This document shows positions 28,362 through 36,247 of a DNA stretch of 40,752 bases, piece after piece (the first letter of the stretch is position 1; every line of letters begins with the position of its first letter). Both the position numbers and the translations under genes were made by a program. The stretch covers positions 1 to 40,752 of the forward strand of contig NZ_RWKQ01000019.1 in assembly GCF_003946885.1 (NCBI RefSeq), given 5' to 3'. The stretch is from Specibacter cremeus (lineage in GTDB: Bacteria > Actinomycetota > Actinomycetes > Actinomycetales > Micrococcaceae). The notes beneath the pieces were generated by a model. The model did not search any database. It was not told the origin of the DNA and worked only from the letters and a program-made list of their open reading frames with translations.

Positions 28362-28928
28362 TCATGGCCGGCCGTCGGCATCGGGGGACAGCAGACCGTT
28401 TTCGTTCGCCCAGCGTGCGAAATCTCCCGGACGAAATGGCAGGCGGTACTGGGTCTCCATCAGGTGGTCGGCCAAGTCACTCACCAGAGCAACGGTCAGA
28501 AGACCCTCCCGGATGGCTTGGCAGAGCATCCCTAACGTGCCTTGGAAGCTGACGGCGGCCTCTTGTGCGGCGCGTCGCGCTACACCGTCGTCGAGGACGG
28601 CGGTGGAGTGATGGACATGGGCGTACGCGAGAACCGCGGCTTCGCCGATGTTGCGCGTTCCCACGACCAGCAGGCTGGAGAAGTGCGCGAAAGCGGCCAA
28701 TTCGACGTCCGAAGTGAGCGTGGATGTCCCGATCCAAGCGGCGTCGAGGACGGACTATAGGTGCGGGTGCGTGTGCAGCCCTTGGCGCAGTTCGCACTCG
28801 ACGGCATCGGGGATGACGACTCGCCGGCTGCCCGCGATCGTCCTCAGGACGCCGAGCCAGCCCGCTTCGGCCAGATGGCTGAGCGGTCCGGTGTCGATGA
28901 CCAACTCGCCATCGTCTTCGTCGGTCAC
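28362..28928 (-). pseudogene. PIN-domain (DUF3368-like) toxin gene, one in-frame amber stop
   Basis: A 189-codon frame starting at GTG 28928, overlapping the stop of the upstream XRE-ImmA gene (GTGA), and interrupted by one TAG at 28755-28757 (codon 58). Before the stop: ELVIDTGPLSHLAEAGWLG, with the first PIN acidic residue at D12, and VVIPDAVECELRQGLHTHPHL. After it, in the same frame: SVLDAAWIGTSTLTSDVELA, GTRNIGEAAVLAYAHVHHST and AVLDDGVARRAAQ, the remaining acidic sites of the DUF3368 group of predicted nucleases. One C-to-T change of CAG would explain the stop. Probably an RNase toxin now inactivated; the downstream part could start internally at TTG 28700. Confidence 0.8.
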
Positions 28929-30055
28929 GAGACGAACTGCCAGATTTCCTGTTCGGTCCGGGGCGGCAGGACCGGCAGATCGGCGGCGTTCCAGGTGTCG
29001 AGCAGCAGGTCCAGGGCGCGCACGTCACTGATCGTCTCGGACTTGAACAGGCGGAGAACGGCTGCCGCGTACTCCCGCGGAAGCTCGCCACCCGGCAGTT
29101 CATCGGCGACGACGAGATCGTATTCGACGAGGTCGGCCCGGCCCGTCCGGACCGTCCGCACGTAGCCGGCCTGGCGATCGTTGATCAGGTTGAGGTCGCG
29201 CAGGCGTCGAGCCAATGTTGACATGTCGACGCGATAATGACTGGCAGTTCGCACCGCTGCCGCGCGCAGGTCGCTGTTGTCGTCAGCGCACCAGGCCCGC
29301 CACTTCTCGCGCAGTGACGTTTCGGGGAGCAGAAATGCTCGGGCGAACCGATCGAGCCCATGCTCCCGGCGATTTGCCTCAATGCTGTTGTCGATGCGCC
29401 AGTCGACGGTGTACTCGTCGGCGATGAGAACGTGGCCGAATTCGTGGGCCAAGGACAGCCGCCGTCGTCCGGTGTGAAACGTGCCGTTGACGATGGCCAC
29501 GGCACCTGCAGGAAGAAGGACGCTTGCCGCATCGGCCGCATCCGCCCCGAGATCGACGACGAACGTCAGAACCCCGGCGGCCGAGAGCTTGGCGCCCAGC
29601 CCGTGAAGGGATTCGCCGGGTTCCACATTGAGGACTTCCTCGCGCGCCTGCCGAGCCAGCGCTTCGGCCTCCGCCAAGGTCGTCGGTTCGGGCAAGGGAG
29701 GAATCGCCCGAAGCGTCCCCCGCAACTCGGCGTCGTGCTGAGCGACGAACTCCACGGCACGCACAACACGCTCGATGACGGCATCGATGCGTGGGCTCGG
29801 CTCGCCGGGATCGACCGCGTTTCGGTGGGACACGATGGCGGGAGGAGCCTCATCGACGAACCATTCGATTCGCTCACCGACCGCCTCGGCGATCCGGGCC
29901 AGCTCCAGGGCAGTGATGCGACGGGCCCCGGTCTCGATCTTGGCAAGGGCGGAACGTTCCAGCCCTACTGTCGGGGCGAGATCGTCTTGCGTGAGCCCGG
30001 CGCGCTGACGTGCCTGGGCAACGCGCATTCCAAGTCCACCTGAGTCAAGGATCAT
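28925..30055 (-). CDS. XRE helix-turn-helix - ImmA/IrrE metallopeptidase regulator
   Basis: An intact 376-residue protein. An N-terminal Cro/C1-type HTH (residues 10-66, MRVAQARQRAGLTQDDLAPTV...LERSALAKIETGAR) is joined to a long helical linker and an ImmA/IrrE-type Zn-peptidase (M78) domain with HEFGH at 204-208 and the downstream DRFARAFLLPE. This architecture occurs in regulators that cleave repressors or act as antitoxins. The ATG at 30055 is preceded by TAGAAT 7 nt upstream and no Shine-Dalgarno, so the mRNA may be leaderless. It overlaps the PIN gene by four bases, which suggests a two-gene toxin-antitoxin or defence unit. Only the PIN half is broken. Confidence 0.85.
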   Translation of the reverse strand: MILDSGGLGMRVAQARQRAGLTQDDLAPTVGLERSALAKIETGARRITALELARIAEAVGERIEWFVDEAPPAIVSHRNAVDPGEPSPRIDAVIERVVRAVEFVAQHDAELRGTLRAIPPLPEPTTLAEAEALARQAREEVLNVEPGESLHGLGAKLSAAGVLTFVVDLGADAADAASVLLPAGAVAIVNGTFHTGRRRLSLAHEFGHVLIADEYTVDWRIDNSIEANRREHGLDRFARAFLLPETSLREKWRAWCADDNSDLRAAAVRTASHYRVDMSTLARRLRDLNLINDRQAGYVRTVRTGRADLVEYDLVVADELPGGELPREYAAAVLRLFKSETISDVRALDLLLDTWNAADLPVLPPRTEQEIWQFVS

Positions 30056-30059
30056 ATGT

Positions 30060-30077
30060 GCGATTCTAGAACATCGC
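30060..30077. promoter_or_regulatory. candidate operator/-10 region of the XRE-ImmA gene
   Basis: GCGATTCTAGAACATCGC is an imperfect inverted repeat (outer GCGAT / ATCGC, inner TTCTAGAA) covering the TAGAAT -10 element on the minus strand, just before the ATG at 30055. A second pair, GCGAC / GTCGC, follows at 30076-30089. Consistent with autorepression by the XRE domain. Confidence 0.5.
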
Positions 30078-30147
30078 GACAAGCGTCGCCAGACCACGAC
30101 GGTCCGCCACAACGCCGAGGGGCCCACGGACCGAGCCCTCGCCGCGT

Positions 30148-31056
30148 CTACCCCGACGCCACCCGCGCCGCACCCAAGGCACCTGCGTACTCGTCGCCGT
30201 CGGACATCAGCAATTCCGGCGCCGGGAAGCACCCGGTGACCGACGCGAGTGCCCGCTCCAGCGCCGGCATGAACGCGCGGTGGTATTGCGCCACGCTGCC
30301 GCCGATGACAACGCATGCGCTGCGGTGCACCGTGAGCAGGTCGGCCAGGCCGGCCGCCACGGTCCGCCCGAACGAATCAAACAACGCACGGGCCGCGGGG
30401 TCGCCGGCCAGGGCGTTTCCAAACGCCGTGCCGATGTCCGCCGGCGTGCCGGTCGCCGAGCCGAGCAGGCGTCCCGCGTCCCGTTGGAGCGCCGACCGGG
30501 ACGCAAGTTGCTCCCAACAGGCGCCCCGGCCGCAATAGCACGGCGCATGGGCGCCGGCCACGCTGAGATGGCCGGCTTCCGGGTGCACCCCGTCGGCGCC
30601 CCGGACGGGCAGCCCGCCGCGGATCGCGCACACGCCCACACCGGTCCCCAGCGTCACCACGAGCGCGCTTGCGCGGTCACGCGCAACACCGTTGGACGTC
30701 TCGAAGATCGCCGCGGTCACGGCATCGTTGTCGATGGCCGGGCGCACGCCGAAACGGCGTTGCAACGGTCCCAGGATGTCGATCCCGGTGAAGGCGGGCA
30801 GCGTTTCCGGGTTGCGGATGGTGCCGTCCGCGTCGATGGGCCCGCTGGCGCCGATGCCGATGCTGTGTGCGGGTCGCCCGGCCAGGACGTCCTCGATGTG
30901 GTGGGCCAGGAACGCGTGGACCTGCCCTGCACCGTCCTTGGGCGTGGCGACGGACGCACGGGCCGCGACCCGGCCGGCGTCGTCCACGGCCACGAACCGC
31001 GAACCGGTGCCGCCGAGGTCGATGCCGACCGAGAGGCCGCCGCGGGTGCCATTCAT
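30148..31056 (-). CDS. ROK-family sugar kinase
   Basis: A 302-residue cytoplasmic sugar kinase without an HTH domain, so an enzyme rather than a ROK repressor. The phosphate loop is VGIDLGGTGSR (residues 10-20), the catalytic Asp lies in PAIDNDAVTAA, the second nucleotide motif is VVTLGTGVGVC, and the Zn-binding ROK signature is HAPCYCGRGACWEQL. Its ATG overlaps the stop of the GMC-SIS fusion (ATGA), so it is translationally coupled. ROK kinases typically act on glucose, glucosamine, N-acetylglucosamine/mannosamine, fructose or allose. Here it probably phosphorylates the sugar or amino sugar handled by the fusion protein; which comes first is unknown. Confidence 0.85.
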   Translation of the reverse strand: MNGTRGGLSVGIDLGGTGSRFVAVDDAGRVAARASVATPKDGAGQVHAFLAHHIEDVLAGRPAHSIGIGASGPIDADGTIRNPETLPAFTGIDILGPLQRRFGVRPAIDNDAVTAAIFETSNGVARDRASALVVTLGTGVGVCAIRGGLPVRGADGVHPEAGHLSVAGAHAPCYCGRGACWEQLASRSALQRDAGRLLGSATGTPADIGTAFGNALAGDPAARALFDSFGRTVAAGLADLLTVHRSACVVIGGSVAQYHRAFMPALERALASVTGCFPAPELLMSDGDEYAGALGAARVASG

Positions 31057-33656
31057 AGGATCGTTGTGACCTTGCTGCCGAAGGCGAAGTCTCCGGGGAC
31101 AACCCCGTTGGCCCGCGCCAGCTCCACCGCGGCGAGCTCGGCGACGACGGCGTTCGTCGCCAACCGTTCGAGGGTGGTGGCCCCCGCCGCCGGGATCGTG
31201 ATCGCGCCGTCGAGCTCAACGTCGCCGATGAGGACCACCGTCGAACCGGTGTCGAGCAGGTCGGTGGCCAGCCGGGGCAGCGTCTCGTCATCGGAGGACG
31301 AGTCGGCGCCGTAGAGGAACGCCGTGAGCCCCGGTCCGGCGAGCTCGAACGGGCCGTGCCGGAACTGCCCGCCGATGAACCCCTCGATGGCCACCTTGGA
31401 GGCCTCCTTGGTGATCAGGCCCGCGAGCAGCGCGGTGGCCGCATCGTCGCGTTTCCCGACGGCGGCGATCCGCCGGCCGGGGGCGGCGATGATCCGTTCG
31501 GCCAGCCGGCCCAGGCGCGTTTCACCGATCGCCGTCTCGACGATCGCCGCGACCGCGCGGATCTCATCGTTGACCGGGGCCGCATCCTTGCCCATGAACG
31601 CGGCGGCGATCTGCCGGTGGACGCCCAGGGTGTTGAGGTAGCTCTTCGTGCTGACGGTCGCCTCCGGCCCGCTGAACAGCGGAAGGAACACGTCGGAGGC
31701 CCGGGCCAGGGGGCTGGATTCGTCGTCCGCGACGCCCACGAGCGCGCCCACGCTTGCCGAACCGGACCGGACCATCTCAAGCAACTCGACGATCTCACCG
31801 CTGGCGCCCGACTGGGACGTCGCGACCAGCAGCGTGTCCGGAGTGAGCAGCTCGATCGAATCCAGGAGCTGGCCCGAGTCGACCCACCAGGTGGGCCGGC
31901 CGGTGGCGGCCAGGGCCCGCCACGTGGGCAGCGCCGAGAAGTGGGAGCTGCCCATGCCGGTGAAGACAATGCGCTGCCACGGGCGTCCGGCGATCGCACG
32001 GAGGGCACGGTAGTCGCCCGAATCCGCGAGGCGCGCGAGCGCGCGGGGCTGCTCGGCGATGTCCTGCTCGAACGACGTGTTGGCGGACAGGCCGCGCGGC
32101 GGGGCGGCCAACACCCGCGCCGGGGCGGCCAGGTTCGCGTCCACCACCTCGACCGGCGCGGCCCCGGCCATCAGGGCCGCGATGTTGGCGCCGATCATGG
32201 CGGTGGGCAGGTTGATGTTGCCGCGGGTGATGGCGGGCATGATCGACGCATCGGCGACGAAGAGCCCCCGCACGCCGTGCACCTGGCCGTTGTCGGCTAC
32301 GACGGCCAGCGGGTCGCTGGCCGGGCCGAGCTTGCAGGTGCCGGCCGGGTGGCAGTAGTTCACGATGTCCTCGAGCGGGTCGGCCGGCCCGGTGATCACC
32401 CGCTCGCCCAGGATGGGCGCGAGTTCCTCGCGGGCCACCATGCGTTCGAGCAGGTCACGGGCCTCCTGCAGGACCGTCCTGTCGTGGTTCTCGGGGTCGG
32501 TGCCGTAGCGGTGGTCGATGACCGGGTTCACCACGTCCAGGCCGGGGCCGAGCGTGACCGTGCCCTCGGACTTGGCGCGCATCGCCCCGCCGTACAGGCT
32601 GATCGGGGGCAGGCCCGGGTGGCCGCTGTTGGCGCCGGCCACCATGAACACGTGGATGTCGTACGGCCCGTCGTCGCAGACGCTTGACCGGGCACGGCCG
32701 AGCGCCTGCTCGTCCGGGTGCAGTTCCAGTGCGGCCAACTCCTCCAGCAGGCCGGGCCGGCCGGCGAAGTCGAGCTGGATGCAGGAGTGGTCCAGCAGGT
32801 GCTTGCCCACGCCGGGGAGGTCCCGCTCGACCTCGATGCCCAGGGCACGCAGCTCGTCCGCGGACCCCACCCCGGAGCGCAGCAGCAGGGCGGGGGAGTG
32901 GTAGGCGCCGGCGGCCAGGACCACGCGCTGGGCGGCGATGTACGACGTCGTGCCGTCACCTTGGGTGACGAAGGCGCCGCGGGCGCGGCCGTCGGCGATG
33001 TCGATGCGATCGACCGTGACATTGCCTTCGATGGTCATATTCGGGCGCTCGCGGACGGCGTCCAGGAACGCGAACGCGCTGTTCCAGCGCACGCCGTCGA
33101 CGATGTTCACGGGCATCGGGCCGATGCCCTCCGCCGCGGCCAGGTCGTCGAGGTCGTCGGCGAACGGCAGCCCGGTGGCCATGCCGGCTTCGACGAAGGC
33201 GCGCTGCGGCGGGGTCAATTCGGCCTCGGTGTAGCGGTTCACGCGGAACCGGTCGCGGACCCATTCGAGAAGGGGCGCCACCCGGTCGGCGGTCCAGGAC
33301 GGGTTGCCCCGGGCGGCCCAGTCGTCGTAGTCGTGGCGGGCGCCGATGGACGCCGTGCAGCCGTTGTGCGACGAGCAGCCGCCGAGGATGCGCGCCCGGG
33401 GCAGGTCCAGTACGCCCTCGCCGGCCGACCGTGGCGTGTGCAGGTCGTAGTCGTGGGACAGTGGGATGGCCCGGGCGTCGAGCATGTCGGCGGGCCATTG
33501 CCCGCCGGATTTCTTGCCGTAGTCCGGGCCGGCCTCGACGAGGAGGATCGTCTGGTCGGTGTGGGCGGCGAGCACGCCGGCGAAGGCGGCGCCGCCGGTG
33601 CCGCCGCCGATCACGAGGGTGTCGACCGTAGCCGGCAGGGGAGCGGTGGTGTTCAT
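31053..33656 (-). CDS. GMC-family FAD oxidoreductase fused to a SIS-domain sugar isomerase/deglycase
   Basis: One uninterrupted 867-residue frame joins two normally separate enzymes. Residues 1 to about 505 are a complete GMC oxidoreductase: FAD loop VIGGGTGGAAFAG (GGGTGG at 17-22), E41 for the ribose, GMC signature ILGGCSSHNGC (90-100), and the C-terminal HPAGTCKLG and RGNINLPTAMIGANIA segments with the catalytic His (about 435) and Asn (about 480). From about 521 a full double-SIS protein follows (FEQDIAEQPRAL; TGMGSSHFSALPTW about 565; TSQSGASGEI about 615; GGQFRHGPFEL about 764), as in GlmS-isomerase/AgaS/FrlB-type enzymes. ATG 33656 follows AAGGA. No glutaminase domain. Confidence 0.88.
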   Translation of the reverse strand: MNTTAPLPATVDTLVIGGGTGGAAFAGVLAAHTDQTILLVEAGPDYGKKSGGQWPADMLDARAIPLSHDYDLHTPRSAGEGVLDLPRARILGGCSSHNGCTASIGARHDYDDWAARGNPSWTADRVAPLLEWVRDRFRVNRYTEAELTPPQRAFVEAGMATGLPFADDLDDLAAAEGIGPMPVNIVDGVRWNSAFAFLDAVRERPNMTIEGNVTVDRIDIADGRARGAFVTQGDGTTSYIAAQRVVLAAGAYHSPALLLRSGVGSADELRALGIEVERDLPGVGKHLLDHSCIQLDFAGRPGLLEELAALELHPDEQALGRARSSVCDDGPYDIHVFMVAGANSGHPGLPPISLYGGAMRAKSEGTVTLGPGLDVVNPVIDHRYGTDPENHDRTVLQEARDLLERMVAREELAPILGERVITGPADPLEDIVNYCHPAGTCKLGPASDPLAVVADNGQVHGVRGLFVADASIMPAITRGNINLPTAMIGANIAALMAGAAPVEVVDANLAAPARVLAAPPRGLSANTSFEQDIAEQPRALARLADSGDYRALRAIAGRPWQRIVFTGMGSSHFSALPTWRALAATGRPTWWVDSGQLLDSIELLTPDTLLVATSQSGASGEIVELLEMVRSGSASVGALVGVADDESSPLARASDVFLPLFSGPEATVSTKSYLNTLGVHRQIAAAFMGKDAAPVNDEIRAVAAIVETAIGETRLGRLAERIIAAPGRRIAAVGKRDDAATALLAGLITKEASKVAIEGFIGGQFRHGPFELAGPGLTAFLYGADSSSDDETLPRLATDLLDTGSTVVLIGDVELDGAITIPAAGATTLERLATNAVVAELAAVELARANGVVPGDFAFGSKVTTIL

Positions 33657-33681: not shown

Positions 33682-34440
33682 TCATGCAATGAGGAGCTCG
33701 GCACCGGCCACCGAGAACTCCTTGCGTTGCTGCGCGGTGGCAGCATCGTCCGTGACAATGAGGTCGACGTCGTTCAGGCCGCAGATGCGCGCGAACGCTT
33801 CCTTCGCGAACTTCGATCCGTCCAGTGCGACGATGGTGCGTCGCGATGCGGAGAGCGCGGCCCGTTTCACGGCCGCGTCCTCGACGTTCCATTCGGTGAA
33901 GCCGGCGTCCGCCGAGGCTGCGGACGCCGTCATCACGTAAAGATCGAACCGAAATCCCCGCAGCGAGGTCTCGGCCTGGGAGCCGATGATGCTCGACTCC
34001 CCGGCGCGGATCTGCCCGCCGGGAACCATCACCCTGGTGGCCGAGTCGGCCGAGAGGATGTCCGCCACCCGGAGATTGAGGGCGCAGACCGTGATGTTGC
34101 GCCCCACCAGCTCCTCGGCGATGGCAACCGCCGTCGTGCCGCCGTCGAGAATCACCGTCTGGCCATCGATGACCTGGCGCGCGACGGCCAAGGCGATCCG
34201 GCGCTTCGCCTCGCTGTTGGTGCGGGACCGAAGCGCAAAGGGAGGCTCGAAACTCCCGCTGGCCGCCGGTGCCGCCCCTCCGTGCGTGCGGACCACCAGG
34301 CCGGCGGAGGCCAGCTGGGTCAGGTCGCGGCGCACGGTCATCTCGGAGACGTTGTAGCGGGCGCTGAGTTCGGCGATGGTGACCTCGCCACGGTTGTTCA
34401 GCTGCTTGAGGATGTCTTGTTGGCGTGTCTCGGCGTTCAC
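33682..34440 (-). CDS. DeoR/GlpR-family transcriptional regulator
   Basis: A 252-residue repressor. The N-terminal winged helix reads ETRQQDILKQLNNRGEVTIA then LSARYNVSEMTVRRDLTQL (residues 4-45), followed by the GxxxRxHGGA hinge (VVRTHGGAA). The C-terminal DeoR effector domain binds phosphorylated sugars (VILDGGTTAVAIAEEL; IVALDGSKF). GTG start at 34440 with AAGGAG 7 nt upstream; the frame continues upstream into the permease but is not coding there. Third of the operon components in sequence order, 25 nt before the GMC-SIS gene and 32 nt after the permease. It probably senses the phosphorylated pathway intermediate. Confidence 0.9.
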   Translation of the reverse strand: MNAETRQQDILKQLNNRGEVTIAELSARYNVSEMTVRRDLTQLASAGLVVRTHGGAAPAASGSFEPPFALRSRTNSEAKRRIALAVARQVIDGQTVILDGGTTAVAIAEELVGRNITVCALNLRVADILSADSATRVMVPGGQIRAGESSIIGSQAETSLRGFRFDLYVMTASAASADAGFTEWNVEDAAVKRAALSASRRTIVALDGSKFAKEAFARICGLNDVDLIVTDDAATAQQRKEFSVAGAELLIA

Positions 34441-34472: not shown

Positions 34473-35921
34473 TTAGTCGACATCGGGCAGCTCGCCCGCG
34501 TGCTGCATCCAGTCTCGCCGTCCGGGCCGCAGGTTGCGAAAGACGAGCAACGCCACTCCGAGCAGCACATAGAACAGGGCGACGAACGGTGCCAGCAGCA
34601 CCGGGAAGTCCGGCAGCGGAACGATGCTGTTGTAGGCGATGACCACGAGCGCGACGGTCGAGACAATCGGTGCCGCCACGTGGGCCCAGACGCTGAACTC
34701 GTCGCGATGGCGCTTGAAGAAGAAGATGAAGGCGGCGATGTTCATCAGGATGAAGATGGGGATGTAAACGAAGGTTCCCGTCGTACCCAGCAGGTTGAAC
34801 AGGTTGAATGGCCCCATCGGAATACCGGCCGCAAGGCAGATGATGATGGCGATGATCGATTGGGCGTACACGGCGACGATCGGCGTCCGGTGCTTGCGCT
34901 GTACTCGCGCCAGGATCGCGGGGAGCGCACCCGTGCGGGCAATCCCGTACAGGGTGCGAGTGGCGCTGGTGGTGCAGGCAATGCAAACACCGAGGCCGGA
35001 ATTCACGAGGGCGATCAGGATGATGATCGATGCGCCATTGAAGAGACGGTCGGCCAGCACGAAGGCCGGTGCGGTCGGGGAGTCCGCCAACGCCGCAAGG
35101 TTCTGTGTGCCCCAGCCGATCTGCAGGCCCCAGGCCGTGACGACATAGAACACGCCAATGAGGACCAGGGAACCGATGATGGCCTTGGGGATGATGCGCT
35201 TCGGATCCCGTGATTCCTCACCCACCACGGCCGCGCTCTCGAAGCCGGTGAACGCGAAGATGGACAACACGATCGCCAGGAAGAAACCCGAGCCGTTCGT
35301 GATGTTGGCGGGATTGAAACCGTCGAGGTTCACCCCACCCTTCCCGGGCATCGACAGGCCGGCCACGGCCAGGCCCAGGCCAACGGCCATTTCAAAACAG
35401 GTCATCACCACGAGGAACTTGATCGAGATCACGATTCCCCGGTAGGCGCAGGCGAAGCAGATGACCAGGATGACGACGGAATAGGCCCACCAGGGAACAC
35501 CGATTCCGTACTTGCCGCCGAGTTCATCCTCGAGGACGGCGCCCGTGAAGGCGGACAGCGCCGCCGGCACGATCGTGACCATGATGGCGTACAGCCAACC
35601 GGTCATGAAGCCGGCCATCGGACCGATGCCGGCCGAGACGTAGGTGTAGAAGCCGCCGGCCGACGGGAGGTGCCGGGCCAGGCCCAGCATCGGCACGGCG
35701 ATCACCAGGCACACGAGGAAGGCGGCCAGATACGTGAGCGGTGCGCTGACCCCGGCCTGCCCCGTCGTGAACGCGATCGTGTAGAAGATCCCGAGTGTCG
35801 GGGAGATCTGGGCAATTGACTGCATCAAGGCTCCGCCGAGCCCGATCGAGCCCTTGCGCAGTCCTGATTCTTGGCCGCTCGGGGCGGTCCGGGGTGAGGC
35901 TTTGGGTTGCGCGGTAGACAT
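34473..35921 (-). CDS. APC-superfamily amino acid/amine permease
   Basis: A 482-residue permease with about twelve transmembrane helices. The unwound first helix has SIAQISPTLGIFYTIAF, and the next segments are VIAVPMLGLARHLPSAGGFYTYVS and the diagnostic FAFTGFESAAVVGEESRDPKRIIPKAI of helix 6, typical of the APC amino-acid transporter family. The ATG at 35921 follows GGAGAG; frame upstream to 35999 is promoter. First gene of the permease-DeoR-GMC/SIS-ROK operon, divergent from TetR. An APC permease beside a SIS deglycase recalls FrlA, which imports fructoselysine, so an amino-acid-sugar conjugate is a reasonable guess for the substrate. Confidence 0.87.
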   Translation of the reverse strand: MSTAQPKASPRTAPSGQESGLRKGSIGLGGALMQSIAQISPTLGIFYTIAFTTGQAGVSAPLTYLAAFLVCLVIAVPMLGLARHLPSAGGFYTYVSAGIGPMAGFMTGWLYAIMVTIVPAALSAFTGAVLEDELGGKYGIGVPWWAYSVVILVICFACAYRGIVISIKFLVVMTCFEMAVGLGLAVAGLSMPGKGGVNLDGFNPANITNGSGFFLAIVLSIFAFTGFESAAVVGEESRDPKRIIPKAIIGSLVLIGVFYVVTAWGLQIGWGTQNLAALADSPTAPAFVLADRLFNGASIIILIALVNSGLGVCIACTTSATRTLYGIARTGALPAILARVQRKHRTPIVAVYAQSIIAIIICLAAGIPMGPFNLFNLLGTTGTFVYIPIFILMNIAAFIFFFKRHRDEFSVWAHVAAPIVSTVALVVIAYNSIVPLPDFPVLLAPFVALFYVLLGVALLVFRNLRPGRRDWMQHAGELPDVD

Positions 35922-36247
35922 GGGCTCTCCTTCGAACGACCGAAAACGCGCCGCCCGGATCAGGTGATCCGAACATTTGACGTGTTCAGTATGACACACA
36001 ATGCGTTAGATTCAACCCAGTTTCGTTCGATTTTTTGTTACCGCCGAGTTGTGCATCGGGACCCGCCCGGCCTGTCGGTCTGCCGGGCCAACGCCGCCAG
36101 AGGGGCGGCGCCGGTGCCGGTTTGGCCGCCGACGTACAGGCCCCGGGAATTCCCCCAATAAGACAAGCAACCGTGGACGGACTAGGCTGGAGAAGCGCCG
36201 GAGTCCGGCCCAACACCCAAAATCGGCACGATACAAATGGAGCCGCA
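35922..36247. promoter_or_regulatory. divergent promoter region between permease and TetR genes
   Basis: A 326-bp gap with no supported gene. The permease-proximal part (35965-36045) is clearly AT-richer. On the minus strand TTGAAT and TACTGA are 18 bp apart, a plausible promoter for the permease operon, and GTGT-N8-ACAC (35980-35995) overlaps it as a possible operator. The TetR-proximal half is GC-rich and shows nothing I can assign apart from GGAG at 36239-36242, the TetR ribosome site. Confidence 0.45.

Follow-up and report, generated by a model that had tools for sequence, protein, structure and literature searches.

The fused gene and its two halves

The window analysed here is a stretch of 40,752 nucleotides (nt) from Specibacter cremeus (contig NZ_RWKQ01000019.1, positions 1 to 40,752), and the gene in question, read from the minus strand (31053..33656), encodes a GMC flavin oxidoreductase and a tandem SIS phosphosugar isomerase in a single protein of 867 residues. 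A first-pass annotation of the sequence had proposed such a protein, and its stop-free translation, together with the Pfam and NCBIfam matches along it, confirms the proposal. The gene begins with an ATG at 33656, immediately preceded by a Shine-Dalgarno (SD)-like AAGGA, and ends with a TGA at 31053-31055, leaving 867 codons without an internal stop. Its GMC half (residues 1-498; 32163..33656, minus strand) is joined to the SIS half (residues 524-867; 31056..32087, minus strand) by an Ala/Pro-rich linker of about 25 residues (about residues 499-523; 32088..32162, minus strand), which holds no ATG and no stop in any frame. Third-position G+C is 0.95 in the GMC part, 1.00 in the linker and 0.92 in the SIS part (0.935 for the whole gene), which is what translated DNA should show in a high-GC genome. 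This genome holds one full copy of the gene; elsewhere in it, GMC proteins were found twice more (35%) and SIS matched once, weakly (27%).

The N-terminal half belongs to the GMC oxidoreductases, as GMC_oxred_N (residues 12-291, E 1e-30) and GMC_oxred_C (362-489, 9e-24) both exceed the gathering score, and the flavin adenine dinucleotide (FAD) motif, the GGCSSHN sequence with His97 and the active-site pair His436/Asn480 are in place. The C-terminal half belongs to the tandem-SIS phosphosugar isomerases, one domain being recognised by Pfam (SIS, 560-682, 3e-14, above the cut-off for one domain) and the other by its fold. In fact, Pfam returned no separate match to a second SIS domain in the fusion protein; the GlmS and NagB-II models of NCBIfam extend the match to about residue 780-816, and the predicted fold is a double SIS one, so that both SIS domains announced by the earlier annotation are accounted for. 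This half carries the phosphate loop TSQSGAS (613-619), EGFIGGQFRHGP and a C-terminal lysine, Lys862. The catalytic signatures previously quoted for the two halves (SQSGASGE, QFRHGPFEL, GGCSSHN and His436/Asn480) are all present.

Structure prediction and conservation agree with this description. The AlphaFold2 model of the SIS half (21 sequences) is a double SIS fold with a mean predicted local distance difference test score (pLDDT) of 89 and a predicted template modelling score (pTM) of 0.89, and GlmS-type isomerase domains head its Foldseek matches in the PDB, with template modelling (TM) scores of 0.76-0.83. The GMC half (20 sequences; pLDDT 83, pTM 0.89) has alcohol oxidase 8rpg, choline oxidase and choline dehydrogenase, pyridoxine 4-oxidase and hydroxymethylfurfural (HMF) oxidase among its closest solved structures. 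The halves were folded separately, and the models say nothing on the mutual orientation of the two active sites. The fusion keeps 67 of the 67 columns that are invariant among 19 SIS relatives and 176 of the 177 invariant among 18 GMC relatives, the sole departure falling at residue 443 (Met443 is Leu); these counts leave out the distant rows L042, L043, L095, L058 and L091, and L036, L054 and L056 (for GMC also L041) lie outside the alignments. In 23 SIS rows, the phosphate-loop residues Ser614, Gln615, Ser616, Gly617 and Ser619, as well as His767 and Lys862, are invariant, and Glu758 nearly so. A joint alignment of both halves was discarded because the SIS rows were laid over GMC and misaligned.

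In the GMC half, His97 of GGCSSHN aligns with His99 of choline oxidase, its site of covalent FAD attachment, and His436 and Asn480 align with its catalytic pair. Cys292, in turn, aligns with choline oxidase Glu312, the ammonium-binding residue. Judged by motifs and invariant columns, both halves look intact, as had been claimed.

Relatives and the reality of the fusion

A pattern-based scan of genome contigs yielded 29 loci. Both halves are encoded in 18 of them (L024-L041), with identities of 63-76% for GMC and 51-63% for SIS. Whole-genome searches, whose thresholds (E 1e-70 or 1e-90) would miss a weak SIS, added few more. Across the order (E 1e-70), 12 of 396 genomes match: five besides the S. 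cremeus genome have both halves, and six only a GMC of 36-42%. At E 1e-90, the window's own genome is the single match among 395 of its family; in the family of genome G245, 13 of 398 match (eight with both halves, five with GMC only), and across the phylum 4 of 396, namely the window's own and three with GMC only. By shared 40-mers, most of these loci are repeats of L024-L038, with L054, L056 and L072 being new. Together with the scan loci and a plasmid of Deinococcus sp. QL22, they bring the distinct relatives carrying both genes to 22. Homologues of GMC at 36-45% identity were set aside as belonging to other pathways, no SIS being found by tblastn (E 1e-20) in four 18-kb neighbourhoods (L083-L086), and a weak SIS-only match (31%, L087) offered no lead.

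GMC and SIS are fused in none of the 22. Where GMC directly precedes SIS (17 relatives), every GMC has its own stop and every SIS its own start, the 15 gaps measured spanning -4 to +31 nt. The remaining five have another gene order and likewise separate genes, although the SIS gene of L036 is cut by a contig end and the GMC gene of L041 is partly masked. The Subtercola loci and one metagenome-assembled genome (L024-L026) appeared as further fusions because of a continuous tblastn match, but were rejected, as an in-frame TGA separates the two parts and the SIS part begins with an ATG of its own.

It could be argued, consequently, that the fused frame is a sequencing or assembly artefact and that the strain carries two genes like its relatives. 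The first-pass annotation had named separate genes in all close homologues, together with an assembly error that removed a stop or start, as what would overturn its view. The former is indeed what we find, in 22 of 22 distinct relatives; moreover, a match at E 1e-90 is missing from all 394 other genomes of the family that were searched and, among the other 97 relatives, no listed match spans both halves. The junction, however, lends no support to such an error. Codons 496-535 contain no stop in any frame and, beyond codon 496, no ATG either, so that one indel could not restore two genes. Within codons 491-530 there is a single SD-like word, GAGGT; GTG 504 overlaps with it, GTG 505 abuts it, and GTG 515 and TTG 516 follow at a distance of about 31 nt or more; hence no usably spaced ribosome site precedes SIS at the junction, whereas an SD-like word of at least four letters stands before SIS in 14 of the 15 relatives with GMC then SIS (Deinococcus being the exception), or in 15 of 19 when four others are included. 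Additionally, all third positions of the linker (31 codons) are G or C. As stop, start and spaced ribosome site are all missing, a single indel error does not explain the fusion.

Two observations weigh on the other side: 47% of the 31-codon windows of the fusion gene have no stops in the other two frames, which makes the absence of stops a weak argument by itself, and the fusion is known from one assembly, of 98 contigs. On the evidence of the junction, the fusion is very probably real and intact, and we regard an artefact as very unlikely. In a tree of 19 concatenated rows, the window occupies an end branch (0.36) by itself, no small grouping around it being well supported, and the nearest rows by path are L072 and Galbitalea L031. 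This lone branch and the lack of any fused relative make the fusion look like an event of one lineage, confined so far to a single tip.

The operon and its variants

The fused gene lies in a tight operon, all of it on the minus strand. Upstream stand the genes of an APC-superfamily amino-acid-type permease (34473..35999; Pfam AA_permease 5e-42), given here as the longest frame, whose true start may be further in, and of a DeoR/AgaR-like regulator of 252 aa with a GTG start (33682..34440; Pfam DeoRC and HTH_DeoR). Downstream, a ROK-family sugar kinase (30148..31056; Pfam ROK 5e-46) begins with an ATG that overlaps the TGA of the fusion by 4 bp. The kinase scores 158 bits against a ROK cut-off of 22.9, which makes it a ROK sugar kinase, and it reached none of the listed NCBIfam subfamily cut-offs. 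An SD-like word is found upstream of the fusion, ROK and DeoR genes alike. Directly downstream of ROK, a frame encodes a protein with a helix-turn-helix and an IrrE/M78 peptidase domain (28925-30316, minus strand), with a weak spr1629-like match; its longest frame overlaps the end of ROK.

All five genes (APC, DeoR, GMC, SIS and ROK) occur together in 18 of the 22 distinct relatives, in whose operons the permease partners are 66-80% identical. The order APC-DeoR-GMC-SIS-ROK is found in 11 of them (L026, L028, L030-L033, L035, L038-L040 and L072) and DeoR-APC-GMC-SIS-ROK in five (L024, L025, L034, L054 and L056). In another two (L027 and L029), the order is SIS-ROK-APC-GMC with DeoR facing away, and the GMC and SIS genes lie kilobases apart. 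In L036, L037 and L041, SIS precedes GMC, a ROK of 30-31% lies some 3 kb further, the genes of a CUT1-type ATP-binding cassette (ABC) importer stand between, and no APC was found; the importer was assigned by Pfam on L037 only (SBP_bac_1), and L036 shows the same open reading frame starts.

The cluster spans several actinobacterial families, and three of its genes reach another phylum: plasmid unnamed5 of Deinococcus sp. QL22 (L094, 7165-10582) carries DeoR-GMC-SIS at 58-72% identity, which suggests horizontal transfer. In S. cremeus itself the operon was perhaps acquired, because no other family genome searched matches at E 1e-90. SIS also occurs apart from GMC. For instance, in Erwinia aphidicola, SIS-ROK-DeoR stands beside a CUT1 ABC importer with no GMC match (two Erwinia loci, the importer being read in L042). 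On a Klebsiella pneumoniae plasmid (NZ_CP050373.1; L095, 8309-12633), annotation places DeoR next to SIS-ROK and an MFS sugar porter, with SIS 41.5% identical, no GMC annotated over the part read, and parts of IS66 and an IS26 nearby. A total of 98 Klebsiella plasmid records match, and the 16 matches listed all fall in the SIS part at 41.5%; this cluster looks like sugar use carried on conjugative plasmids.

Comparison with known systems

The families involved are known, and it is their combination that is new. Although the GMC half shares its fold and His/Asn pair with choline oxidase, choline dehydrogenase and HMF oxidase (2jbv, 9lq0 and 4udp), and GGCSSHN with choline oxidase, it is only 26-29% identical to them (Foldseek rows), has Cys292 in place of Glu312 and remains below the NCBIfam cut-offs. 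It scores 204 of 732 bits for betA, 233 of 605 for choline dehydrogenase and 218 of 387 for mycofactocin MftG (TIGR03970), which places it outside these families. Choline oxidation was rejected as its function on account of the missed cut-offs and the substitution at Glu312.

Similarly, the SIS half has the tandem SIS fold, Ser-rich phosphate loop and HGP motif of the GlmS isomerase domain and of NagB-II (4s1w, 1moq, 8eol and 3hba), but it lacks the glutaminase domain, is about 16-21% identical (Foldseek rows) and falls far under the cut-offs. For GlmS, it obtains 54 of 418 bits (TIGR01135) and 60 of 381 (PRK00331), with GMC rather than glutaminase as its N-terminal partner, and for NagB-II glucosamine 6-phosphate deaminase 55 of 430 (NF046059), so that it is a member of neither. 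It shares a C-terminal lysine with GlmS. In a profile search of solved structures, GlmS 4s1w scored 92 bits, NagB-II 8eol 69 and the fructosamine deglycase 3eua 28.9, and thus, by these scores, the SIS half appears to be nearer to GlmS/NagB-II than to the FrlB/FraB-type deglycases. Of the isomerase or deglycase initially suggested, therefore, the isomerase kinship stands and the deglycase is doubtful.

In terms of gene content, the frl/fra fructosamine operons also unite a transporter, a kinase and a SIS enzyme, FrlA being an APC-type permease and the kinase PfkB-type. Here, by contrast, the kinase is ROK, a GMC enzyme is added, and SIS is weakly similar to 3eua. The Klebsiella cluster shares the adjoining SIS, ROK and DeoR but has an MFS sugar porter instead. 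A possible common logic links the operon to mannopine/santhopine catabolism in Agrobacterium, in which an amino alditol is oxidised and the ketosamine then broken.

From 6-phosphofructose-lysine, FrlB, of which FraB is a paralogue, produces glucose 6-phosphate and lysine (PMC9609667); deoxyfructosyl-glutamine (DFG), the compound from which mannityl opines are derived, is broken down by the socABCD products (PMC4231840); and an actinobacterial glucosamine kinase belonging to a different family adjoins an AgaS-type SIS gene (PMC6520443). In the open-licence literature searched, no description of a GMC-SIS fusion or of a GMC/SIS/ROK operon appeared among the papers listed.

A proposed pathway and its alternatives

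On balance, we lean towards a catabolic operon, APC permease-DeoR-GMC-SIS-ROK, in which the adjacent GMC and SIS genes became one and which would work as follows. The permease would import a sugar or sugar alcohol that is small, polar and amine-bearing. In the GMC half, His97 probably holds FAD covalently, and with His436/Asn480 as catalytic pair this half would turn a hydroxyl into a carbonyl and so yield an amino-ketose or amino-aldose; the ROK kinase, by its family, would phosphorylate this product. The SIS half would then use its TSQSGAS loop to bind the phosphate and, by GlmS/NagB-II-like chemistry involving the C-terminal Lys, isomerise or deaminate the compound to hexose 6-phosphate and an amine, while DeoR probably senses an intermediate. 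Through the fusion, covalent linkage would have taken the place of close gene coupling, fixing expression at 1:1 and co-locating two steps of the pathway with no need for direct channelling.

The order uptake, GMC, ROK, SIS is the simplest one given a phosphate loop in SIS, an unphosphorylated oxidase product and a ROK gene beside SIS in 18 of 22 relatives. Regarding the substrate, the APC permease argues for an amine and the CUT1 and MFS variants for a sugar, and an amine-bearing sugar or alditol, whose catabolism is the likely role, fits both. Additionally, the SIS-ROK-DeoR sets with no GMC match in Erwinia and Klebsiella suggest that SIS and ROK may form the core route and GMC a front end feeding in a more reduced substrate. 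Some observations speak against this scheme. A CUT1-type sugar importer replaces APC in L037 and L041 (L036 showing the same gene starts), and the Deinococcus plasmid has neither an APC nor a ROK match in 18.6 kb; the substrate class is consequently not fixed, and the binding proteins of L037 and L042, which match various sugar binders, do not reveal it. Moreover, the placing of GMC ahead of the kinase is an assumption; it could act instead on the released amine part. The fuller version is put forward as a tentative possibility: amine-bearing alditols or amino sugars would be degraded by a so far undescribed oxidative route, GMC being followed by kinase and GlmS-like SIS, and its first and last enzymes would have been welded in one lineage.

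More specific readings can be considered. If the substrate were an N-substituted amino alditol of the glucamine or mannityl-opine type, GMC would produce an Amadori ketosamine, ROK would phosphorylate it and SIS would deglycate it, following the mannopine-to-santhopine logic. The set of permease, kinase and SIS recalls the fructosamine operons, DFG (santhopine) arises in mannopine catabolism (PMC4231840), and Arthrobacter isolates with soc genes degrade santhopine (PMC8262997); nevertheless, the greater proximity of SIS to GlmS/NagB-II than to 3eua and the ROK nature of the kinase make this reading unlikely. Decidedly unlikely, too, is a substrate in which an amino alcohol is glycated or joined to a sugar, and from which SIS would free the amino alcohol for oxidation by a choline-oxidase-like GMC: choline oxidase and dehydrogenase are among the nearest solved GMC structures and GGCSSHN is common to the former, but Cys292 at the position of Glu312 and the betA and choline dehydrogenase cut-offs, missed by far, speak against it.

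The channelling from oxidation to isomerisation that had been suggested initially would pass unphosphorylated intermediates from GMC to SIS within the fusion, for which the covalent linkage and the intact motifs of both halves could be invoked. The invariant phosphate loop of SIS and the separate kinase gene next door, kept in 18 of 22 relatives, indicate instead that phosphorylation probably takes place between the two steps, and the proteins of the relatives are separate, with genes kilobases apart in L027 and L029. We consequently find channelling unsupported and highly improbable.

Meaning of the fusion

Taken alone and at a single tip, the fusion is a modest evolutionary event. In the conserved cluster around it, a GlmS-like isomerase is combined with a sugar kinase and a flavin oxidase, acting on a substrate not named in the literature searched. 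In this setting, the fusion hints strongly that GMC and SIS serve one pathway, and it offers both enzymes as a ready single construct for assay.

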